A stretch of DNA of 64,000 bases, taken from positions 1 through 64,000 of the forward strand of contig CALMGM010000003.1 of assembly GCA_937863685.1 (NCBI GenBank), in the 5' to 3' direction. The notes under the pieces were generated by a model, which saw nothing but the letters and a program-made list of their open reading frames with translations, ran no database searches and had not been told where the DNA came from. A program made the position numbers and the translations under genes. Positions 21,689-52,720 of the stretch are shown piece after piece. Each line of letters starts with the position of its first letter. Within the stretch, counting starts at the first letter, position 1. The stretch comes from an uncultured bacterium (lineage in GTDB: Bacteria; Edwardsbacteria; AC1; EtOH8).

Positions 21689-22045
21689 CCACCATAAGGA
21701 ATTTAGAATATTGAAGATAGAATTGGTGAATGGTTGTCAATCAATGCGATGGTGCTTTTATTACTCTGGCAATTAAATAGATCAATAATCCTTATCCGTT
21801 TTTCGAACATCCTTGTTGTCATGCCCGTGAAAACGGGCATCCAAGCCTGGATTCCCTCTTTCGAGGGAATGACACATTGCGCTGTTTATTCGCCGAAGTA
21901 ATAATAACTAACGAAACAATCTGCTGTACATATGGATCGCTTCGCCTGAAAACCACAAAGCCGTCTTGCGATGACGGTTTCCTGAATATTCTATATTCAA
22001 GATTCCATATTCAATATTCATCTTTTATCATTGCAAGCAGGTGAT
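21689..22045. repeat. Gene-free region of dispersed repeats before dapF
   Basis: No gene is seen in these 357 bases. They contain an AT-rich ATATTGAAGATAGAATT unit (21699-21735), its inverted relative (21983-22020), and between them a TGTCATGCCCG...CGAGGGAATGACA palindromic repeat (21817-21875) of the TGTCATTCCCGC family found throughout the window. Confidence 0.7.
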
Positions 22046-23069: not shown

Positions 23070-24669
<1,600 letters not shown>

Positions 24670-24755: not shown

Positions 24756-25958
24756 ATGCAAAAGTTAACAGAAGAAAATGATATTCTTGAAGAGATGGAA
24801 GAAGAGGATGTTGAAGAAATCGAGAGCTCTGAACTTGATATTGTAAAAAAATATGATGAGGGGCAGGCGAGGATAGTAATTCAACGCAATGATTTTCTTA
24901 TCCCAAATATTCTACAAATGGTTAAAGACAGGGATATTCTAAACTTAGCCCCAACATACCAAAGAAGGAAGAGATGGAGTAATACTAAACGTTCTCACCT
25001 CATTGAATCGCTACTTATTAATATTCCCATCCCCCCGGTCTTTTTATACGAACGTGATTTAGCTAAGTATGAAGTAATGGACGGGCAGCAAAGGATGGAT
25101 GCAATACGCGGTTTTTTTAAAAATGAATTTGCACTTACAAACCTAAAAAAATGGCCGGAGCTTAATGGACGCGTGTACTCTGATTTGCCCTCCAGAATTC
25201 AAGCAGGGCTTAACCGCCGAGGTCTATCAGCTGTTATAATCCTTACGGAGAGCGGTCAATCAGAGGAAGTTGCAATGGAAATACGTCAATATGTGTTTGA
25301 ACGATTAAATACTGGTGGTGAAAAACTTAATCCACAGGAAATTAGAAACTGCATATATTCTAGCCCCTTTAATGATATGCTAGTTGAACTTGCACGTACT
25401 AATTTGTTCACAACCGCATGGAATATACCACCCAAGGAACCGGGTGAGCCGAATAAAATTAGCAAGAAACTTGAAACTAATAGACTATATTCTGTTATGG
25501 CCGATTGCGAAATTGTTCTTCGTTTCTTTGCATTGGGAGAAATGAAATACTTTAAGGGTGGCATGAAAAGGGCCCTTGACGATTGTATGAAGAGAGAAAA
25601 AACACTTACTAAAAAGGAATGTTTGGCACAGAAGATCAAGTACATACATTGTCTTTCAATTGCAACTAAAACATTTGGGCCAGTACTCTTCAGATTGCCA
25701 AGTAAAAATGATGAATTAACTGGCAGACATTCTGTCCCGCTATCTGATGCAATTCTTTTAGGTATACGTTCGCTTAGTGCAAAAGATGCAAACAAGCTAC
25801 CACGTTATTCTACGAAAATAGTCGCAAAAATAAATAAAATGTTAACAACTGAAGAGACTTATAAAACATTAGTTGGACGTGCGAATACAAAATCATCTAT
25901 AGTGGAACGAATTAATCTGGTTTCTGATGTATTCAAGTCCGTGGTAAAAGGTAATTAG
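24756..25958 (+). CDS. DUF262 (GmrS/ParB-like) domain protein
   Basis: A 400-residue protein with the DUF262 signature: LAPTYQRRKRWSNTKRSHLIESLLINIPIPPVFLYE followed by EVMDGQQRMDAI, where DGQQR lies at about residues 109-113. DUF262 is the ParB/Srx-like NTP-hydrolysing domain found in GmrSD type IV restriction and other defence proteins. Here no C-terminal HNH (DUF1524) nuclease is visible. The gene is AT-rich and followed after 3 bases by a HEPN gene, so the partner may supply the nuclease. Confidence 0.87.
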   Translation: MQKLTEENDILEEMEEEDVEEIESSELDIVKKYDEGQARIVIQRNDFLIPNILQMVKDRDILNLAPTYQRRKRWSNTKRSHLIESLLINIPIPPVFLYERDLAKYEVMDGQQRMDAIRGFFKNEFALTNLKKWPELNGRVYSDLPSRIQAGLNRRGLSAVIILTESGQSEEVAMEIRQYVFERLNTGGEKLNPQEIRNCIYSSPFNDMLVELARTNLFTTAWNIPPKEPGEPNKISKKLETNRLYSVMADCEIVLRFFALGEMKYFKGGMKRALDDCMKREKTLTKKECLAQKIKYIHCLSIATKTFGPVLFRLPSKNDELTGRHSVPLSDAILLGIRSLSAKDANKLPRYSTKIVAKINKMLTTEETYKTLVGRANTKSSIVERINLVSDVFKSVVKGN

Positions 25959-25961
25959 CAG

Positions 25962-26735
25962 ATGTTAACAATAGCACAGGAATTTTCAAGACGGACAGAA
26001 AGTGTTATTGCACTTCTCGATATAGTCGCAGCGGCAATTGTAGTTGCAAAGGCTGATCACAAGAAGATAAAGACACGTGCTCCTTTTGTAGTGTTATCAA
26101 AAAAACTTAAGAACGCAGTGTTGGCGAATGCTGATTTTCAGTTTACGGCACTTGATGGTCCATACTTGACTTTGTGTGCTGAATACGAAATGACTATACG
26201 TAATTTGATTGAAAAATTTGTGCTTGATGCTGTCCAGAAATGCCCCGAGTATCACCATCTCCCGAGAGAGATGCGTGAGTGGTATCCAGATGGTTGTTCT
26301 AAGGTAATCTTGGATATAAAACAGGATAAGTTTTCACATTTAACAAAAGAACAATTAGTTCGAAGCCTTGCAAGCTCTTTAAAAAATAGAGAATATAATT
26401 TGCTAGGCGAAGTTTTTTCCTATAATCAAATAAACTTTTGGCCTGAAATAGTTGAGGATACACTATCAAAGCGTCTTGGTCTGCTGAAAATCTGGCAAAA
26501 ACTTTCCCGCGATACCACTCTTCAGGGAATTATTGGAACAACCGTGCTTGCAACTGTTGAACGCCAGCTTAAGGAAAAGCTGGGAAAAATAATGCAAAAA
26601 CGAAACGATATCATTCATAGAGGGCGCAACTACTGTACGTCATCTGATTCTGAGGTGAGGGAGGCAGCAAAAATTCTCAAAGGAATTGTTGATGCCCTTG
26701 CTAAGCTTATGGAACAGTATTTAGATAGCCTTTAG
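25962..26735 (+). CDS. HEPN-domain RNase (RiboL-PSP / MAE_28990-like)
   Basis: A 257-residue helical protein resembling the HEPN families named RiboL-PSP-HEPN and MAE_28990/MAE_18760. The C-terminal KRNDIIHRG contains the R-x4-H catalytic motif of HEPN RNases (R214-H219). The middle has TLCAEYEMTIRNLIEKFV and NQINFWPEIVEDTLSKR. HEPN RNases act in toxin-antitoxin and abortive-infection systems. It forms a tight pair with the upstream DUF262 gene, and both are much more AT-rich than the flanking guaB. Confidence 0.82.
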   Translation: MLTIAQEFSRRTESVIALLDIVAAAIVVAKADHKKIKTRAPFVVLSKKLKNAVLANADFQFTALDGPYLTLCAEYEMTIRNLIEKFVLDAVQKCPEYHHLPREMREWYPDGCSKVILDIKQDKFSHLTKEQLVRSLASSLKNREYNLLGEVFSYNQINFWPEIVEDTLSKRLGLLKIWQKLSRDTTLQGIIGTTVLATVERQLKEKLGKIMQKRNDIIHRGRNYCTSSDSEVREAAKILKGIVDALAKLMEQYLDSL

Positions 26736-26754
26736 CCGCATATTTAGTGGACGC

Positions 26755-26790
26755 AACCCAATTATCTGCGGGGCGGGCGGCAGGATGGGT
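26755..26790 (+). pseudogene. Fragment of a dapB gene start
   Basis: About 36 bases are nearly identical to the beginning of dapB: ATTATCTGCGGGGCGGGCGG then CAGGATGGG, which encodes IICGAGGRMG. There is no continuing gene. It lies at the right end of the DUF262-HEPN block, directly before the second guaB-end copy. It resembles the 31682-31752 copy slightly more than the intact dapB (CAGGATGGG rather than CCGGATGGG). Confidence 0.75.
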
Positions 26791-26814
26791 AGGCTATTTG
26801 CTTGAATAAAAATT

Positions 26815-26982
26815 GCCATGTGCATGACTTGGTGATCACCAAGGTGGCACCGAACTACGAGGTGGAGCGGGGGTAGGCCCCATGCTTGCCTGCATGTTTG
26901 TTTAAGGAGGAATGATAAAGGCCGGGCGAGGGTTTACAGTTTGAGTTGCAATTATAAAGGCAAGCGATATTTAAGTGTTTAA
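26815..26982 (+). pseudogene. Remnant of the guaB 3' end (right copy of the 168-bp repeat)
   Basis: The sequence encodes [19 protein letters not shown] and a stop (26874-26876), the last residues of IMPDH with V-to-L and E-to-V changes, followed by the same downstream DNA as after guaB. It cannot be expressed as IMPDH. It marks the right border of the inserted block and would be the recipient's original guaB terminus in an insertion model. Confidence 0.85.
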
Positions 26983-27098
26983 AATGATAAGGGTGTGCTT
27001 CATCAAAGCTGGTTATCATATAAAGACAACTAGTTGTGCATCTTGTTGTAATGTTTATGTATATAAATCACTAATATAGAGTTTGAAGAGAAAATAAT

Positions 27099-27899
27099 AT
27101 GGAAGTCGTAATTTCTAAATTAAATGATATCCTAACAGAGATAAATAAACTAAAACCTGAAAATGGGTTTAGGAAATTTGTTGGCATAATAAATCGTGCG
27201 CAAGCTATAGCTCCACATGCTTTTCCATTCAATTCAAAACATGGTGGTACTCTTAGCAGTATTTTAAAGCGGTTTGATACGGTTTTTAAAAAATTGAGTG
27301 AAACCGATATACACGATTTGGCAAATGCCATACAAATAATGATTGATGAACTTGAAATAGAACAATATCAAGGGACTAATAGCGGAATGAAAAACAGAAA
27401 AACCAAATTATCAGACGATGTAGATAATAAAAAGGATAAAAACTATAATTCAAAAATATTTGTAGTACATGGCCATAATGAATTGATGAAACAGGAAACA
27501 GCAAGGATTCTTGAAAAATTAAAACTCCAACCAATAATTCTTCATGAGCAAGTGAATTCTGGTGATACCGTAATTGAAAAATTTGTGAAGCATGCAGATG
27601 TTGGATTTGCCGTTGTGCTTCTTTCTGCAGATGATTATGGTTACACAAAGGGCGAAAGCAATGCAAAAGCAAAATTAAGGGCAAGGCAAAATGTAATACT
27701 TGAGTTGGGTTACTTTATGGGAAAACTCGGAAGAGACAAAGTTGTTGCAATATTTGAGCAAGGAACAAATTTTGAAAAACCATCTGATATTAACGGTGTG
27801 GTATACATTTCATACACTCCTAACGAAAAAGGATGGCAATTGGAGTTGGCAAAAGAGATAAAAGCTGCCGGTTACCAAATTGATGTAAATATGCTGTGA
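27099..27899 (+). CDS. TIR-like nucleotide-binding domain protein (CAP12/Pycsar-type TIR)
   Basis: A 266-residue protein. The C-terminal half (about residues 118-262) matches the predicted nucleotide-binding TIR-like family: KIFVVHGHNELMKQE, LHEQVNSGDTVIEKF, VVLLSADDYGY and ARQNVILELGYFMGKLGR, ending in VVYISYTPNEKGWQ. In the related CBASS Cap12 and Pycsar effectors this domain degrades NAD+. The N-terminal 115 residues are helical and not recognised. No cyclase gene is adjacent, so it may be a stand-alone defence effector. It is AT-rich, like the DUF262-HEPN pair. Confidence 0.85.
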   Translation: MEVVISKLNDILTEINKLKPENGFRKFVGIINRAQAIAPHAFPFNSKHGGTLSSILKRFDTVFKKLSETDIHDLANAIQIMIDELEIEQYQGTNSGMKNRKTKLSDDVDNKKDKNYNSKIFVVHGHNELMKQETARILEKLKLQPIILHEQVNSGDTVIEKFVKHADVGFAVVLLSADDYGYTKGESNAKAKLRARQNVILELGYFMGKLGRDKVVAIFEQGTNFEKPSDINGVVYISYTPNEKGWQLELAKEIKAAGYQIDVNML

Positions 27900-30421: not shown

Positions 30422-30530
30422 AAAAATGCGGTTTTTGTCGGTCAAACGCCGATAATATTTTGATGTCTGGCATTATGTTCAACCTTATCTCATGCGGGGC
30501 GGCTTTAAAAACCATTAAAATTAGATCACT

Positions 30531-31703
30531 ATGAGCCATTCGAATATAAAATCTCTGGTAACCGCTGTTTTGGTGGCTGCCGCTATCGGCACGGGCTTTT
30601 CCCAGCCCTATCCCGATTTTGGCCCGGAAAAGCCGGTCATTATCATCGGCCTGACCTTCGACGCCATGGAGCCGTTCATCTCCCCGGACGGGAATACCCT
30701 GTTCTTCAACTCCCTTAATTCCGGCGGCAACACCAACCTGTATCATGCGACCAGGGTGAATGACACGGTTTTCACATATGACGGACTGGTGGGAGGCATC
30801 TATGATCCCTCGCCCGATCACCTGGATGCGGTGGCCTCGCTGGATTCGGCCGGGAATTTCTTCTGGGTGTCGCTGAGAGGCTATCCCGCCGTCTTCGAGA
30901 ACCTCCACCGGGGGCGGTATTCTACCGGAGCGGTCACCGATACCACCCGGGTCTACGGGGATTTCAACATCGACACCCTGGGCTGGCTGATCATGGACGG
31001 CACCATCAACTATCAGGGCGACAGGCTGTACTACAACAATGCCTATTTCAACCTGGCCGAGCCCACCGGCATTCCGGAACAGGCCAGGCTGGGGGCGGCC
31101 CAAAGGATTGACGACAGCACCTTCAACAAACTTCCGGATACCGAGGAGATCTTCGCCGCCGTCAACGATGCCGGATATTTGGTCTATGCTCCGCAGATAA
31201 CCGGGGACGGGCTGGAACTCTATTTCACCCGGCTGCTGAAGAACACCATCAACACCGAGATCTGCCTGGCCCTACGCGCGGCCGCCGACCAGGCTTTCGG
31301 CCCTCCGGTGGTGCTCCATTCCAACCCCGGCTATGTGCCCGAGGCCCCGACCCTGACGCTGGATAAGCAGGTGTTGTACTACCACCAGAAGGACAGCGCC
31401 GGCATCTTCAGGATATTCCTCCGCTACCGGAGTGGGGCGGCCGGGGTCGTCGCCGACGAACCCTCTCCGGGTCCAGCGGATAATTTCAGAATATACCCCA
31501 ATCCGGCCCGAAACCTCATCCACATAGCCTCAACCAACCAGTTTGCCAAATACCGGGCGGAACTTTATACCATTCTGGGCCAGCGCTGCCTGGGGCCGAC
31601 CGGTCTGCCGCAACTCGACCTGTCGGGGCTGCCCGGCGGCATATATTTTCTGAGGATCCGGGAAGGCGGCCGGTACCGTTCGTTCAAATTCGTCAAGGAA
31701 TGA
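30531..31703 (+). CDS. Secreted PD40/beta-propeller-like protein with C-terminal sorting tail
   Basis: A 390-residue exported protein with an N-terminal signal peptide (about residues 1-25, ending GFSQ). Repeats such as EPFISPDGNTLFFNSLNSGG and GDGLELYFTR resemble WD40-like PD40 blades. Residues from about 310 form a type IX secretion-like C-terminal domain: FRIYPNPARNLIHI, ending SGLPGGIYFLRI...RSFKFVKE. This tail directs export through the T9SS in FCB bacteria. Its last 22 bases and the adjoining dapB start were duplicated at 32311. Confidence 0.75.
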   Translation: MSHSNIKSLVTAVLVAAAIGTGFSQPYPDFGPEKPVIIIGLTFDAMEPFISPDGNTLFFNSLNSGGNTNLYHATRVNDTVFTYDGLVGGIYDPSPDHLDAVASLDSAGNFFWVSLRGYPAVFENLHRGRYSTGAVTDTTRVYGDFNIDTLGWLIMDGTINYQGDRLYYNNAYFNLAEPTGIPEQARLGAAQRIDDSTFNKLPDTEEIFAAVNDAGYLVYAPQITGDGLELYFTRLLKNTINTEICLALRAAADQAFGPPVVLHSNPGYVPEAPTLTLDKQVLYYHQKDSAGIFRIFLRYRSGAAGVVADEPSPGPADNFRIYPNPARNLIHIASTNQFAKYRAELYTILGQRCLGPTGLPQLDLSGLPGGIYFLRIREGGRYRSFKFVKE

Positions 31704-31752
31704 AAATATGTTAAACCTGATAATCTGCGGGGCGGGCGGCAGGATGGGCCAG
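31682..31752 (+). pseudogene. Left copy of a 71-bp repeat: gene junction with truncated dapB start
   Basis: This segment spans the end of the T9SS-tailed gene and a dapB start at 31708 encoding MLNLIICGAGGRMGQ, after which homology stops and a TGA follows at 31801. It aligns without gaps to 32311-32381 (60 of 71 positions identical by eye), which contains the intact dapB start. The two copies bracket the small gene at 31800. Confidence 0.85.
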
Positions 31753-31799
31753 AGTAACTGTAAACATATCAGTATAACTTTATTAAGAGAGATACGCCG

Positions 31800-32294
31800 A
31801 TGAAGTTCAAAACAGCATTTGTTTTCTTTGTGGGTGCGCTTTTTCTGATTACCGCGGGAATATCCGCCCAAACAGCGGTACCGAAGAAAATCGAGATCAG
31901 CGGTGGTTTTATCAAAACTTATAGAATGGATGATGTAAAAATTAAGAACGTCAAAGAATTAGACCAAATCCTAAGCCAGGTTACTGATATCGAAATGACC
32001 CAATCTTTTCAAGACGGCAAGACATGGAACAGCTGCGGGCAGTTATTTGGAATAGTCGGGGGGGCGCTTATCGGCTACCCATTGGGCCAGGCGATGGCGG
32101 GGAAGGAACTCAACAAACCTGTTCTGTTCACAGGGATAGGCATTACTACGGTAGGTCTCGTTTTTGTGATGAATGCCGAAAAAGATATTTTGGCCGCGAT
32201 AGAAAGGTACAACACAGTGATCGATGAAAAATATCCGATCGGATTTGGGGCCGACCCATTCAATAAATCGGTTTATCTTACCCTTTCCTGGTAA
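31800..32294 (+). CDS. Exported protein of unknown function
   Basis: A 164-residue protein with a signal peptide (MKFKTAFVFFVGALFLITAG, cleavage after about residue 23). The mature part contains a short helical region (VKELDQILSQVTDIEMTQSF) and two hydrophobic segments: LFGIVGGALIGYPLGQAMAG, glycine-zipper-like, and VLFTGIGITTVGLVFV. No family recognised. It sits between two copies of the dapB start, so it is probably a recent arrival. Its ATG overlaps the end of the truncated dapB frame. Confidence 0.65.
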   Translation: MKFKTAFVFFVGALFLITAGISAQTAVPKKIEISGGFIKTYRMDDVKIKNVKELDQILSQVTDIEMTQSFQDGKTWNSCGQLFGIVGGALIGYPLGQAMAGKELNKPVLFTGIGITTVGLVFVMNAEKDILAAIERYNTVIDEKYPIGFGADPFNKSVYLTLSW

Positions 32295-32336
32295 TATAAT
32301 GGTCAGCAAGGTTCAAATTGTTCAAGGGATGAAACC

Positions 32337-33107
32337 ATGATAAACATTATCATCTGCGGGGCGGGCGGCCGGATGGGCCAAGCCGTGATCGAGGCCTGCC
32401 GGGAAAGCAAGGATTTCACCATTGTCGGCCTGGTAGAAAGCCAGGGACACTCGATGATAGGCCAGAAATTCGGGGACACTCTGCCAGAACTGTCGGCAGA
32501 CCTCGACAAAATATTGGACAAAGGCGATGCGGTGATAGACTTCACCTCGCCCGAGGCCTCGCTGAAGAACGCCCGGATCGCGGCCCGGCATAAAAAGCCT
32601 GCGGTCATCGGCGCCACCGGGATCAATCCCGATCAGTTGAAGGAACTGCAGGAGCTCTCCAAAAAGATCCCCCTGCTGGTATCCTCCAACATGTCCATCG
32701 GGGTCAACCTGCTTTACGATATCATCTCCCGGGCGGCCAAGGCCATCCCCGGCAACTTCGATGTGGAGATCATCGAAACCCATCACAAAAACAAAAAGGA
32801 CGCCCCCAGCGGCACCGCCAAAAAACTGCTGTCGGAGATAATCGAAGTGCGGGGCGGCCGGCCGGTCTACCAGCGGGAGAGCTCCAGCAAACCCAGGGGC
32901 GAGGGCGAGATCGGGGTGGTGTCCATCCGGGCCGGGGATATCGTGGGCGAGCACACGGTGGTCTTTGCCGGGCCGGGCGAGCGGATGGAATTCACCCATC
33001 GGGCCCACGGCCGGAGGGTGTTCGCCGAGGGGGCGCTGGCGGCCGCCAGATTTCTGGCCCGGGCCCAGCCGGGGATGTACGATATGAAGAACGTGCTTGA
33101 AAAATAA
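32337..33107 (+). CDS. dapB: 4-hydroxy-tetrahydrodipicolinate reductase
   Basis: A 256-residue DapB, the NAD(P)H-dependent second step of the diaminopimelate branch. The nucleotide-binding loop is ICGAGGRMGQ (residues 5-14). The active-site segment is ETHHKNKKDAPSGTAKKL near residues 146-163. GTRG-like substrate contacts include GATGINPDQL. Two truncated copies of its 5' end lie upstream at 26755 and 31708. It is followed by a TPR lipoprotein and dapL. Confidence 0.95.
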   Translation: MINIIICGAGGRMGQAVIEACRESKDFTIVGLVESQGHSMIGQKFGDTLPELSADLDKILDKGDAVIDFTSPEASLKNARIAARHKKPAVIGATGINPDQLKELQELSKKIPLLVSSNMSIGVNLLYDIISRAAKAIPGNFDVEIIETHHKNKKDAPSGTAKKLLSEIIEVRGGRPVYQRESSSKPRGEGEIGVVSIRAGDIVGEHTVVFAGPGERMEFTHRAHGRRVFAEGALAAARFLARAQPGMYDMKNVLEK

Positions 33108-35035: not shown

Positions 35036-35085
35036 AACATTATTTCAAATTGCATATTGTAAAATTTAAAATTGCAAAATGAAAA
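35036..35085. repeat. AT-rich repeat, left flank of the four-helix-bundle gene
   Basis: Made of TTATTTCAAATTGCA and AAAATTGCAAAATG words. It is an imperfect inverted copy of 35446-35492 on the other side of the gene. Similar words occur at 19408, 45926, 50743 (inside asd) and 52374. Confidence 0.6.
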
Positions 35086-35445
35086 ATGAGTCTGCAGAAG
35101 AATGAAATATCGGAACGGTTGCTTTATTTTGCCGCCAATGTCATCAAACTGATGAGCCCTTTGGCAAAAAGTGTTGCAGGATTTCATATTTCGAAACAAT
35201 TGATGCGGTCCGCGACTTCAGCCGGGGCAAATTATGAGGAATGTTGCGGGGCAGAAAGCAAGAATGATTTCATTCATAAAATGCAGATCGTTCTGAAAGA
35301 ATTAAAAGAATCATTGTATTGGCTAAGGCTTATTCGCAAGGCTCAATTAGTACCAGACGTTCAAACAGACGACTTATTCAAAGAAGCAACCGAGTTGGTT
35401 AAAATAATTGCGAAGTCAGTGGTAACTGCCAAGCGGGGCAAATAA
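35086..35445 (+). CDS. Four-helix-bundle protein (23S rRNA intervening-sequence type)
   Basis: A 119-residue protein of the four-helix-bundle family first found in 23S rRNA intervening sequences. Characteristic segments are FHISKQLMRSATSAGANYEECCGAES and FIHKMQIVLKELKESLYWLRL. The function of this family is unknown; such genes occur sporadically and in isolation. Here the gene is bracketed by imperfect inverted AT-rich repeats and splits dapL from the V/A-ATPase operon, which suggests it moves as a small unit. Confidence 0.85.
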   Translation: MSLQKNEISERLLYFAANVIKLMSPLAKSVAGFHISKQLMRSATSAGANYEECCGAESKNDFIHKMQIVLKELKESLYWLRLIRKAQLVPDVQTDDLFKEATELVKIIAKSVVTAKRGK

Positions 35446-35492
35446 TAAATATGAAATTTACAATTTAATATTTGCATTTTGAAATAATAAAT
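35446..35492. repeat. AT-rich repeat, right flank of the four-helix-bundle gene
   Basis: Contains AATATTTGCATTTTGAAATAA, which reverse-complements to TTATTTCAAAATGCAAATATT and matches the left flank (35039 on) with a few changes and small indels. Confidence 0.6.
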
Positions 35493-40552: not shown

Positions 40553-40563
40553 AACATTTTTAT

Positions 40564-40661
40564 TGTCATTCCCGCCTACGCGGGAATGACATATTACGAC
40601 CGCCCCCTTTAACCCCCTCCCGTGAGGAGGGGAAGCAAGCGTCCCTTCCCCTGCGGGGAAG
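40564..40661. repeat. Palindromic repeats splitting the ATPase operon
   Basis: The 238-bp gap between subunits D and I contains a TGTCATTCCCGC / GCGGGAATGACA palindrome (40564-40591), then CCCCTCC/GGAGGGG (40614-40632), then CTTCCCC/GGGGAAG (40645-40661). These are copies of the dispersed repeats and separate the soluble-subunit genes from the membrane-subunit genes. Confidence 0.75.
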
Positions 40662-45113: not shown

Positions 45114-45131
45114 ATGCCGATAATCGTCCAA
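45114..45131 (+). pseudogene. Aspartokinase gene-start fragment, copy A
   Basis: ATGCCGATAATCGTCCAA, the first 18 bases of the lysC-start variant also seen at 46517 and 48013; the intact lysC differs at two positions (CCA, ATA). Homology stops one base before the start codon of the next gene. A chance match of this length beginning exactly at ATG is unlikely. Confidence 0.7.
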
Positions 45132-45132
45132 G

Positions 45133-46346: not shown

Positions 46347-46380
46347 AAGCAATTGTTATATATAGCGCAATGATATTGTG

Positions 46381-46444
46381 TGTCATTCCCGCAAAAGCGG
46401 GAATCCAGAAAAACACTGGATTCCGGGTCAAGCCCGGAATGACA
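46381..46444. repeat. Palindromic repeat, TGTCATTCCCGC family
   Basis: TGTCATTCCCGCAAAAGCGGGAAT, then an inner CCAGAAAAACACTGG hairpin, then ATTCCGGGTCAAGCCCGGAATGACA. A two- or three-hairpin version of the dispersed repeat. Confidence 0.75.
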
Positions 46445-46516: not shown

Positions 46517-46648
46517 ATGCCGATAATCGTCCAAAAATACGGAGGCAGTTCGGTCTCCAACGTCCGGCGCATCAAGGCGGTGGCCGCCCGGATCGTCCGG
46601 GCCAAGCGCCGGGACGATAAAGTGCGTATAACCGGCCATTGGTGGTAA
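46517..46648 (+). pseudogene. Aspartokinase gene-start fragment, copy B
   Basis: About 106 bases match the 5' end of lysC (offset 2027, roughly 11 differences, most of them synonymous). It encodes [20 protein letters not shown] and continues to AKRRDDK before diverging; the frame stops at 46646-46648 after 43 residues. The synonymous pattern means this copy comes from a lysC that was under selection, not from a recent local duplication. It cannot be a working kinase. Confidence 0.88.
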
Positions 46649-47378: not shown

Positions 47379-47945
47379 ATGGATCAACCAAACAAACCCC
47401 CGGAGAACAGTGATCGGGAAAAAACCATCTCCAAGCGGGACGTGGTCAACATTTGGCTGGACTCCTTGGATGAATTGTTTTCCGATTTCGATCCCAGATC
47501 GTATCTTAAACGCACCGTATCGGACGATTTCATCGCCCAGGTCAGGAAAGTGGTTGCCGACCAGCAAGGGAAAGAAATGATCCTGCGGTTACAGCTGCCG
47601 GCGGGAACAAGGAATGAACAGGATGAAGACATAATCGCCACGCGCCTGCAGCTGTATTTTAAGGAAAAATCCGGCCAACTTTTAAAGGAAAGGCAGAACG
47701 GGATCCGGAATGCCGTCATTCTGACCATATCGGGTATTGCCTTGATGATCTTTTCAAGTTACATCATATTTTTGAATTCGGAAAGATATTACCTTCAGCT
47801 GCTCCTGGTGTTATTTGAGCCCGGCGGGTGGTTCTGCCTTTGGACGGGGCTTGATCGTTTGATCGATTATTCGGGAAGACGAAGAAAAGAACTGGATTTT
47901 TATTCCAGGATGGCCACGGCCCAAATTCAATTCAGCACGATCTAG
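47379..47945 (+). CDS. Membrane protein of unknown function
   Basis: A 188-residue protein. Residues 1-105 are soluble and charged (SKRDVVNIWLDSLDELFSDF, YLKRTVSDDFIAQVRKVVAD). Two membrane helices follow, at about 108-130 (AVILTISGIALMIFSSYIIF) and 136-158 (QLLLVLFEPGGWFCLWTGL), and a short cytoplasmic tail. No family recognised. The TTTTGCCC/GGGCAAAA hairpin after it probably terminates its transcript. Confidence 0.65.
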   Translation: MDQPNKPPENSDREKTISKRDVVNIWLDSLDELFSDFDPRSYLKRTVSDDFIAQVRKVVADQQGKEMILRLQLPAGTRNEQDEDIIATRLQLYFKEKSGQLLKERQNGIRNAVILTISGIALMIFSSYIIFLNSERYYLQLLLVLFEPGGWFCLWTGLDRLIDYSGRRRKELDFYSRMATAQIQFSTI

Positions 47946-48012: not shown

Positions 48013-48063
48013 ATGCCGATAATCGTCCAAAATACGGCGGGGTTTCGGAATAAACCTTTATAA
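48013..48063 (+). pseudogene. Aspartokinase gene-start fragment, copy C
   Basis: ATGCCGATAATCGTCCAAAA then TACGGCGG, matching copy B for about 36 bases but lacking one A of the A-run, so the frame shifts (MPIIVQNTAGFRNKPL, stop at 48061). It shares CCGATAATCGTC with copies A and B against CCAATAATAGTC in the intact lysC. Confidence 0.8.
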
Positions 48064-48543: not shown

Positions 48544-49749
48544 ATGCCAATAATAGTCCAAAAATACGGAGGCAGTTCGGTCTCCAACGTCCAGCGTATC
48601 AAAGCGGTGGCCGCCCGGATCGTTCGCGCCAAGCGCCGGGGCAACAAGGTGGTGGTGGTCGTCTCGGCCATGGCCGACACCACCGACGACCTGAGCGCCC
48701 TGGCCCGCCAGATATCCAGCGACCCGCCCCGCCGCGAGATGGACATGCTGCTGACCACCGGCGAGCGGATCTCCATGGCACTGCTGGCCATGGCCATCCA
48801 CACATTGGGCGAAAAGGCGGTCTCCTTCACCGGGTCGCAGGTGGGCATCATCACCGACTCCAGCCACACCCGGGCAAAAATACTGGAAATAAAGCCGGAA
48901 CGCTTGAAAGATTCCCTTAAAAATGATAGCATAGTGATCGTGGCCGGATTCCAGGGGGTCAGCCTGGCCCGGGAGATCACCACGTTGGGGCGGGGCGGCT
49001 CGGACACCACCGCGGTGGCCCTGGCAGTGGCCCTGGAGGCCGACGCCTGCGAGATCTACAGCGACTTCTCCGGAATCTTCAGCGCCGATCCCCGGCTGGT
49101 CAAAAGCGCCCGGCCGTTAACAGGGATATCCTTCGACGAGATGCTGGAGCTTTCCAGCTGCGGGGCCCAGGTGCTTCATTTGCGGGCGGTGGAGCTGGCC
49201 GCCAAGTACAGCCTGCCGCTGGTCTGCCGCAGCAGTTTCGACAACAAACCGGGAACGATAGTAGGGAAAGGTTCTAAGATGGAACGGGTGGTCGTCAAAG
49301 CCATTGCCCACGATAAATTTCTGGCCATGCTGGCCATGAAGGCGGTGCCCCGCAAAAGCGTGCTGCTGAGCCAGGTGGTCACCCAGCTGGCCGGGGCCGG
49401 GATATACATCAGGTCCTATTTCCACGGCGGGGGCGACGGCGGAAAGACCGACCTTAACTTTATCGTCAACCAGGCGGACCTGAAGGCGGCCCAAGGGATC
49501 ATGGAAAAGAACCTCAAGAAGATGAAGGGAGCCGGTCTGTACGTCAACCAGGACATCGGAGCGGTGTCCCTGATCGGCAGCGGGGTGGGCAGCCAGCCGG
49601 CGGTGATGGCCAAAATGCTGGCCCAGCTGGGAAAGATCAAGATCCACATCGAGGGCATGACCACCAGCGAGACCAAGCTAAGCTGCTTCGTGGCCCGCAA
49701 GGACATCGAAAAGGCGGTGCTGGCCCTGCACAAGAGTTTTATCGGATAA
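48544..49749 (+). CDS. lysC: Aspartate kinase
   Basis: A 401-residue monofunctional aspartokinase, the entry to lysine, threonine and methionine synthesis. It has [11 protein letters not shown] at residues 5-15, the substrate region [28 protein letters not shown], and C-terminal ACT repeats from about 265 ([32 protein letters not shown]), which usually bind lysine or threonine as feedback inhibitors. ATG at 48544 matches three truncated upstream copies; no Shine-Dalgarno is visible. The frame extends back into the NUDIX gene only by chance. Confidence 0.94.
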
Positions 49750-49779: not shown

Positions 49780-49926
49780 TGTCATTCCTGTCCCTGTCAT
49801 TCCAGCCCCGCATCAAGTGCGGGATAAACCCCACCCTTCCCTCCCCTCGAGGGGAGGGAAACCGACAGGCAGGGAGAGGTCGGTAATCCAGGTTTTTTGT
49901 GGATTCCCGCCTGCGCGGGAATGACA
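49780..49926. repeat. Composite palindromic repeat between lysC and the next gene
   Basis: A TGTCATTCCTG...GCGGGAATGACA element containing an inner CCCTCCCCTCGAGGGGAGGG palindrome (49839-49858), so one repeat family is nested in another. No gene is seen between 49750 and 49979. Confidence 0.75.
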
Positions 49927-49979
49927 CCAGGTGGTATTTATGGTTAATTTTATATCCAATTTAAAATTGGAGGACCATC

Positions 49980-52372: not shown

Positions 52373-52720
52373 TTTATTTCAAAATGCAAAAATATAATTA
52401 CCGGCGTCATCCTGGGTTTCCATCATAGATGCCACTCGAAGGGTCAATGTCATCCTGAAATGACTGGAGCGCTTTTCTTTTGAAGGATCTCTGAGATTCT
52501 TCAAGGGTATGGCGGGATGCCGAAATCAGAATGACGAAAAATCGCGATAATAACCATTGCTAGTTTTCAAATGGCTTCGTTGTCATGCCCATGAAACTTG
52601 TCCTCGACACAGATCGGGGAATGGGCATCCAGGCCTGGATTCCCGCCTACGCGAGAATGACAAATGGAGCAATTCGCTCGATACAGTAAAAATAAAATAA
52701 TTAAAAAGATTGTCTAAAAA
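52373..52720. repeat. Gene-free repeat region before dnaX
   Basis: The 348 bases hold an AT-rich TTATTTCAAAATGCAAAAATAT unit (about 52374), a GTCATCCTG...CAGAATGACG element (52406-52536) with inner GAAGGATCT/AGATTCTTC, and a TGTCATGCCC...GAGAATGACA element (52581-52662). No gene or clear promoter for dnaX is visible. Confidence 0.7.

Follow-up and report, generated by a model that had tools for sequence, protein, structure and literature searches.

Truncated copies of core-gene starts and tails mark a repeatedly used insertion slot between guaB and dapB in Candidatus Edwardsbacteria

Introduction

How did a gene for a small exported protein come to lie between two copies of the same gene junction, only one of which leads into a complete dapB? 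We addressed this question in the window, i.e., the whole 64,000-nucleotide stretch of DNA analyzed here, which belongs to a Candidatus Edwardsbacteria genome (G000; 2.72 Mb, 14 contigs, 97.9% complete). The comparison set comprised ten genomes of the phylum, all drafts from one family and four of them in the genus. The scan for truncated copies of core genes (hereafter, scars) covered 864 kb of G000 and 360 kb of G002. Loci were then checked individually by hand, because the enrichment of gene starts and tails versus middles on greedily called open reading frames was too noisy, owing to paralogues and to antisense frames that displaced dapB.

Results

The repeated junction ahead of dapB

The features at the focal insertion are as follows.

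30531..31703, + strand: gene for an exported protein with a T9SS tail (Por_Secre_tail), putative cargo of an earlier insertion; absent here in nine relatives
31682..31752, + strand: left repeat copy; last T9SS codons, a 4-nt gap and the first 15 dapB codons
31708..31803, + strand: 31-aa mini-ORF of 15 dapB codons plus junction; its stop codon and the start of the 164-aa gene form an ATGA overlap
31800..32294, + strand: gene for a 164-aa exported protein (cargo), specific to G000 within the phylum
32311..32381, + strand: right repeat copy; T9SS-tail-like FKLFKG and stop, leader, start of the functional dapB
32337..33107, + strand: functional dapB (dihydrodipicolinate reductase); Pfam DapB_N 2.5e-33, DapB_C 6.2e-44

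The initial annotation was exact in reporting that the two copies agree at 60 of 71 positions without gaps, and it described their content correctly (FKFVKE versus FKLFKG, a stop, 15 dapB codons). Specifically, the left copy reads ..SFKFVKE, stop, and then MLNLIICGAGGRMGQ (15 codons), and the right copy reads ..RFKLFKG, stop, and then the complete dapB; as that annotation also held, a full gene follows the right copy only, where both the DapB_N and DapB_C matches are found. Chance similarity was rejected on two grounds. First, the local alignment score of the repeat is 50, against a mean of 9.2 and a maximum of 15 for shuffled sequences. Second, when the whole window was searched, the next ungapped 71-mers resembling the left copy scored 39 and 38, and the runners-up include two (at 26723 and 30449) that are themselves further dapB-start scars, in register. 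Beyond the 71-nt block, a comparison over 130 bases shows both flanks dropping together to background matches.

The T9SS gene, whose tail matches Por_Secre_tail at 6.2e-8 (Pfam) and TIGR04183 at 4.6e-10, has a single homologue (48%) among the nine other genomes, on a different contig of G007. The 164-aa protein has a hydrophobic, signal-peptide-like N-terminus, no Pfam, PADLOC or credible NCBIfam match, and only two weak matches in 386 genomes. Both genes are missing from this locus in the nine relatives, and hence the insertion is lineage-specific. Further, the 164-aa gene is absent from all nine other genomes of the phylum, in agreement with the recent insertion that had been proposed, as opposed to an arrangement kept in distant species. 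The features of a transposon or insertion sequence were not found, the focal insert being one open reading frame without a family match.

The guaB-dapB slot

Upstream of the focal insertion, the interval between guaB and dapB contains the following additional features.

23091..24563, + strand: guaB, left core gene of the slot and conserved dapB neighbor across the family
24502..24669, + strand: guaB tail and downstream region, original copy; 87.5% over 168 nt versus 26815-26980
24756..25958, + strand: GmrSD_N/DUF262 defense-type cargo gene; Pfam 8.5e-24, PADLOC NsnA 4.1e-68
25962..26735, + strand: RiboL-PSP HEPN cargo gene; Pfam 4e-13
26755..26789, + strand: dapB-start scar behind the GmrSD and HEPN genes; matches dapB at 93% over 29 nt (E 1e-5)
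26815..26980, + strand: guaB-tail scar, starting 25 nt past the dapB-start scar at 26755
27099..27899, + strand: CAP12-type TIR defense cargo gene; Pfam 3.1e-36, PDC-S35 2.4e-70
30475..30502, + strand: dapB-start scar (28 nt) before the T9SS gene
30475..30534, + strand: 19-aa mini-ORF extending that scar; ATGA overlap with the T9SS gene

The interval thus holds three truncated dapB starts (26755, 30475 and 31708) and a copy of the guaB tail (26815) amid accessory genes, and this makes it a repeatedly used slot, not the site of a single insertion, a point that the initial annotation had missed. From guaB onward, the order is GmrSD-HEPN, dapB scar, guaB-tail scar, TIR, g28064-CCG-g29672, dapB scar, T9SS gene, dapB scar, 164-aa gene and dapB. 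The cluster at 24756-27899 is of defense type (NsnA-like GmrSD/DUF262, HEPN and CAP12-TIR) and is split by the dapB-start and guaB-tail scars. Other genes amid the scars of the window include a 2-oxoacid dehydrogenase-type acyltransferase and a NUDIX gene.

Across the wider family, guaB and dapB are close neighbors whose interval is empty or nearly so, and by this comparison of gene orders the ancestral arrangement is guaB-dapB. Within the genus, each species fills the interval differently. G002 has g28064-CCG-g29672 and lacks both the T9SS and the 164-aa gene; G003 has a 280-aa gene, a dapB scar and g28064-CCG; and G001 has a restriction enzyme and methyltransferase, a dapB scar, g28064-CCG, a dapB scar, CPBP, a dapB scar and Fic (the enzyme names in G001 were read off the sequences, not taken from a family search). 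G001 and G003 therefore carry dapB scars of their own beside other cargo. G000 retains the g28064, CCG and g29672 of G002 plus the added cargo, with no accompanying deletion. Each scar is truncated inside the core gene and then gives way to unrelated sequence, such that the junction is homologous on one side only.

The atpK-lysC slot and other loci

A second slot in the window lies between atpK and lysC.

45114..45132, + strand: lysC-start scar 1 (19 nt); junction common to G003
46517..46613, + strand: lysC-start scar 2 (97 nt), closest to the lysC of G002
48013..48048, + strand: lysC-start scar 3, after a 188-aa gene; same gene and scar in G001
48544..49749, + strand: functional lysC

The initial annotation had assigned the focal repeat and lysC to one type of event, and lysC-start scars are indeed found ahead of the real lysC. 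This part of its interpretation stands. For a T9SS-tailed neighbor in the donor, no support was found: none of the nine relatives checked has a T9SS gene abutting dapB, and a donor genome with exactly the 164-aa gene, T9SS tail and dapB in combination was not found. A direct repeat that arose from a circle, or from a staggered break at this T9SS-dapB junction, would have the same appearance. All four congeners have lysC-start scars in the atpK-lysC interval, and G001, G002 and G003 also have atpK-tail scars, around other cargo such as restriction-modification genes. The 188-aa membrane-protein gene (47379-47945) is followed by a scar (48013) with the same 1-nt deletion in G000 and G001, and so the gene and its scar travel together, whether by descent or by transfer.

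Most gene boundaries in the scanned sequence are scar-free, and the scars, although multi-locus, are concentrated in a few slots. The 360 kb of G002 added a uvrB-start scar and an acyl-CoA-dehydrogenase-tail scar, and the 864 kb of G000 added a glyS start-plus-promoter scar and a gatD-tail scar. At glyS (contig C5, 614333-617215), the promoter and first codons are duplicated around a 772-aa exported-protein gene as a direct repeat of 205 nt; in G001 and G002, the site is empty and the upstream gene directly adjoins glyS, making the insertion a pure addition. At C5 676907-677860, the tail of gatD (Glu-tRNA(Gln) amidotransferase subunit D) is copied downstream of a 212-aa gene. Repeat lengths vary widely (71 nt at dapB, 168 nt at guaB and 205 nt at glyS), with no fixed target duplication.

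Two further kinds of repeat were observed in the window. A 35-nt inverted repeat with 80% complementarity (35039-35488) encloses a four-helix-bundle gene (S23/intervening-protein-like; 35086-35445), which follows the aminotransferase gene in G000, G002, G006 and G009, and not in G003. Dispersed imperfect repeats of the form GGATTCCCGC...GGGAATGACA occur in both orientations, often near gene ends, at the following positions.

21832-21907: dispersed repeat
40559-40594: dispersed repeat
46380-46422: dispersed repeat
49885-49927: dispersed repeat
52620-52695: dispersed repeat

Alleles and composite junctions

Several scars are closer to the genes of other species than to their own. The lysC scar at 46517 differs from the G002 lysC at 1 of 97 positions and from its own lysC at 7 of 97, with 0 private changes in the scar and 4 in the gene. 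Similarly, the dapB scar at 31708 shows 2 differences in 45 positions to the G001 dapB, compared with 6 to its own gene, and its translation is still MLNLIICGAGGRMGQ. The glyS scar is 80% identical to its own gene, with the scar and the gene showing 85.5% and 88.5% identity to G001, respectively. Allele-level mixing between species accounts most simply for this mismatch. In G001, the scars lie only 0-3 nt from its own genes, and thus same-species donors or self-duplication are possible there. When dapB, lysC and guaB were compared with those of congeners in sliding windows, no clear mosaic switch emerged, in a genus whose members are nearly equidistant.

Composite junctions, in which the start of the right core gene (B) is joined to the tail of the left one (A), occur at two slots, dapB/guaB in G000 and lysC/atpK in G001. 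Such a junction is what would remain if slot versions A-X-B and A-Y-B were joined head to tail with their ends trimmed, and simple target-site duplication would not produce it. The lysC/atpK joint, the sole one with both parents known, shares approximately 3 nt (CGC), by inspection.

Coupling of dapB scars to inserted genes

An ATGA stop/start overlap was present in four of the five testable dapB scars, namely those before the T9SS gene, the 164-aa gene, CPBP and Fic; in the fifth (before g28064), the mini-ORF stops 36 nt short. Junction randomization gave a probability of 0.04-0.11 per event, and hence P=7e-5 for at least four of five, for a pattern that was noticed after the fact and a statistic that is post hoc. 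None of the eight lysC and uvrB scars tested has the overlap, and over all 13 start scars P=0.008. Because the truncated dapB start forms a mini-ORF ending on the ATGA of the cargo, the scar is probably a translational leader, i.e., a mini-cistron coupled to the inserted gene. The T9SS tail in both copies carries, by inspection, a Shine-Dalgarno-like AAGGA/AAGGG just ahead of the dapB ATG, and this motif may be the reason that 22 bases of the T9SS tail were kept on the right. Our literature search found no paper on gene-start scars as leaders for acquired genes.

Discussion

Origin of the scars

We favor, with somewhat more confidence than doubt, the reading that the slot between the core genes guaB and dapB grew by additive recombination of alternative versions of itself, without a recombinase. 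The incoming DNA would come from a related strain or species, carry the slot in a different version and pair with the chromosome via a short stretch of shared core gene, here the T9SS/dapB junction. A point against this reading is that the focal copies, at 85% identity and with a longest identical run of 18 nt, are today a poor substrate for RecA pairing. Its other end would be joined illegitimately, either as a trimmed, end-joined molecule entering by a single crossover or through homology-facilitated illegitimate recombination (HFIR). Both contents would then be kept, as A-X-B(start)/Y-B or as A-X-B(start)/A(tail)-Y-B, with the truncated start or tail as the scar. Longer repeats would be lost by recombination, leaving scars of 20-200 nt, and the dapB scar would be retained since its start codon forms the mini-ORF coupled through ATGA to the cargo. 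The organism presumably takes up DNA from relatives: comEC is present in all ten genomes of the family and, being widespread, lends natural transformation weak support. Ku is absent from all ten, and Ku-dependent end joining was therefore rejected.

The alternative that survives best, which we nevertheless regard as unlikely, is self-duplication, in which foreign DNA became trapped at a staggered break in the gene junction, fill-in then doubled that junction in the manner of a long target-site duplication, and divergence of the copies followed. At the focal site and at glyS, a plain direct repeat surrounds a single insert, as this model predicts, and the near identity of the G001 scars to their own genes is also in its favor. 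However, self-duplication yields no start/tail junctions, and the family lacks the Ku protein. Further, it does not account for the lysC scar at 46517, which matches G002 and is free of private changes, unlike its own lysC, or for the three-way distances at glyS, which make the scar an independent lineage.

We give still less credence to integrase-free cassettes, each comprising cargo and the start of the downstream core gene, that use core-gene junctions as homology-based attachment sites, leave as circles via the repeats and re-enter the same junction elsewhere by host recombination, with the duplicated start serving as an ATGA leader.

An unrecognized integrase-dependent element, or an integron-like cassette system with gene starts as attachment sites, appears very improbable. 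The arrays are cassette-like, an open reading frame followed by a short repeat with all genes co-directional, but the repeat differs at each locus, on which basis a sequence-specific attachment site was rejected, and the breakpoints vary (dapB nt 28-45; lysC nt 19-97). In an integron array, cassettes would have a common recombination site, whereas the repeats here are locus-specific gene starts and tails. Further, the Pfam scan of the guaB-dapB cargo found no integrase, and an integron integrase scored above the TIGR02249 cut-off only in G003, with G000, G001 and G002 below it. The G003 gene is a full integron integrase (contig C70, 26420-27361; 462 bits).

Ancient tandem duplications of dapB and lysC, almost wholly deleted since, would explain why the scars are remnants of gene ends, but we find this scarcely plausible, given that unrelated cargo lies within every pair and varies by species, and that the search turned up no dapB or lysC remnants of intermediate length. 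An assembly or binning artifact merging strain variants is hardly credible even for metagenome-type drafts, since four separate genomes, among them assemblies of 9 and 14 contigs, have the pattern at shared loci around inserts that differ, and one lysC junction is common to two genomes.

Relation to known systems

The favored additive route resembles HFIR, which has been reported in Acinetobacter, S. pneumoniae and P. stutzeri (PMC3240628), in that foreign genes are captured through a homologous anchor on one side and an illegitimate junction on the other, with no mobile element involved. However, HFIR generally deletes recipient DNA, whereas the scars here are additive and duplicate gene starts and tails. 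A second parallel comes from E. coli, where linearized DNA from a conjugated plasmid was partly degraded, recircularized and integrated by one crossover, resulting in partial target duplications of 109-950 bp in 56 of 60 clones (PMC3240628). There, as here, part of the homologous locus is duplicated around the insert, but the present scars arose in nature, are stacked serially and at gene starts measure mostly 20-110 nt, with a maximum of ~205 nt.

Serial HFIR-like insertion that leaves remnants of displaced genes has built the Type VI effector-immunity arrays of Vibrio cholerae (PMC5361080); in those arrays the effector is displaced, whereas here no housekeeping gene is disrupted, and duplication is confined to the first or last codons. 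Finally, many hotspots of horizontal gene transfer lack a mobile element and have recombining core-gene flanks (PMC5635113), and they share with our slots the variable cargo between fixed core genes and the lack of a recognized mobile element. In the model for such hotspots, clean double homologous recombination replaces the content, in contrast to the addition with scars described herein.

The scars make it possible to read, from the genomes of wild, uncultured bacteria, how genes (often defense genes) are serially added beside essential genes without mobile elements. They polarize events, reveal donor alleles and allow the additive route to be tested against clean replacement. As the ATGA-coupled dapB leader suggests, insertion points of this kind may survive because the inserted gene is immediately translated without damage to the essential gene.
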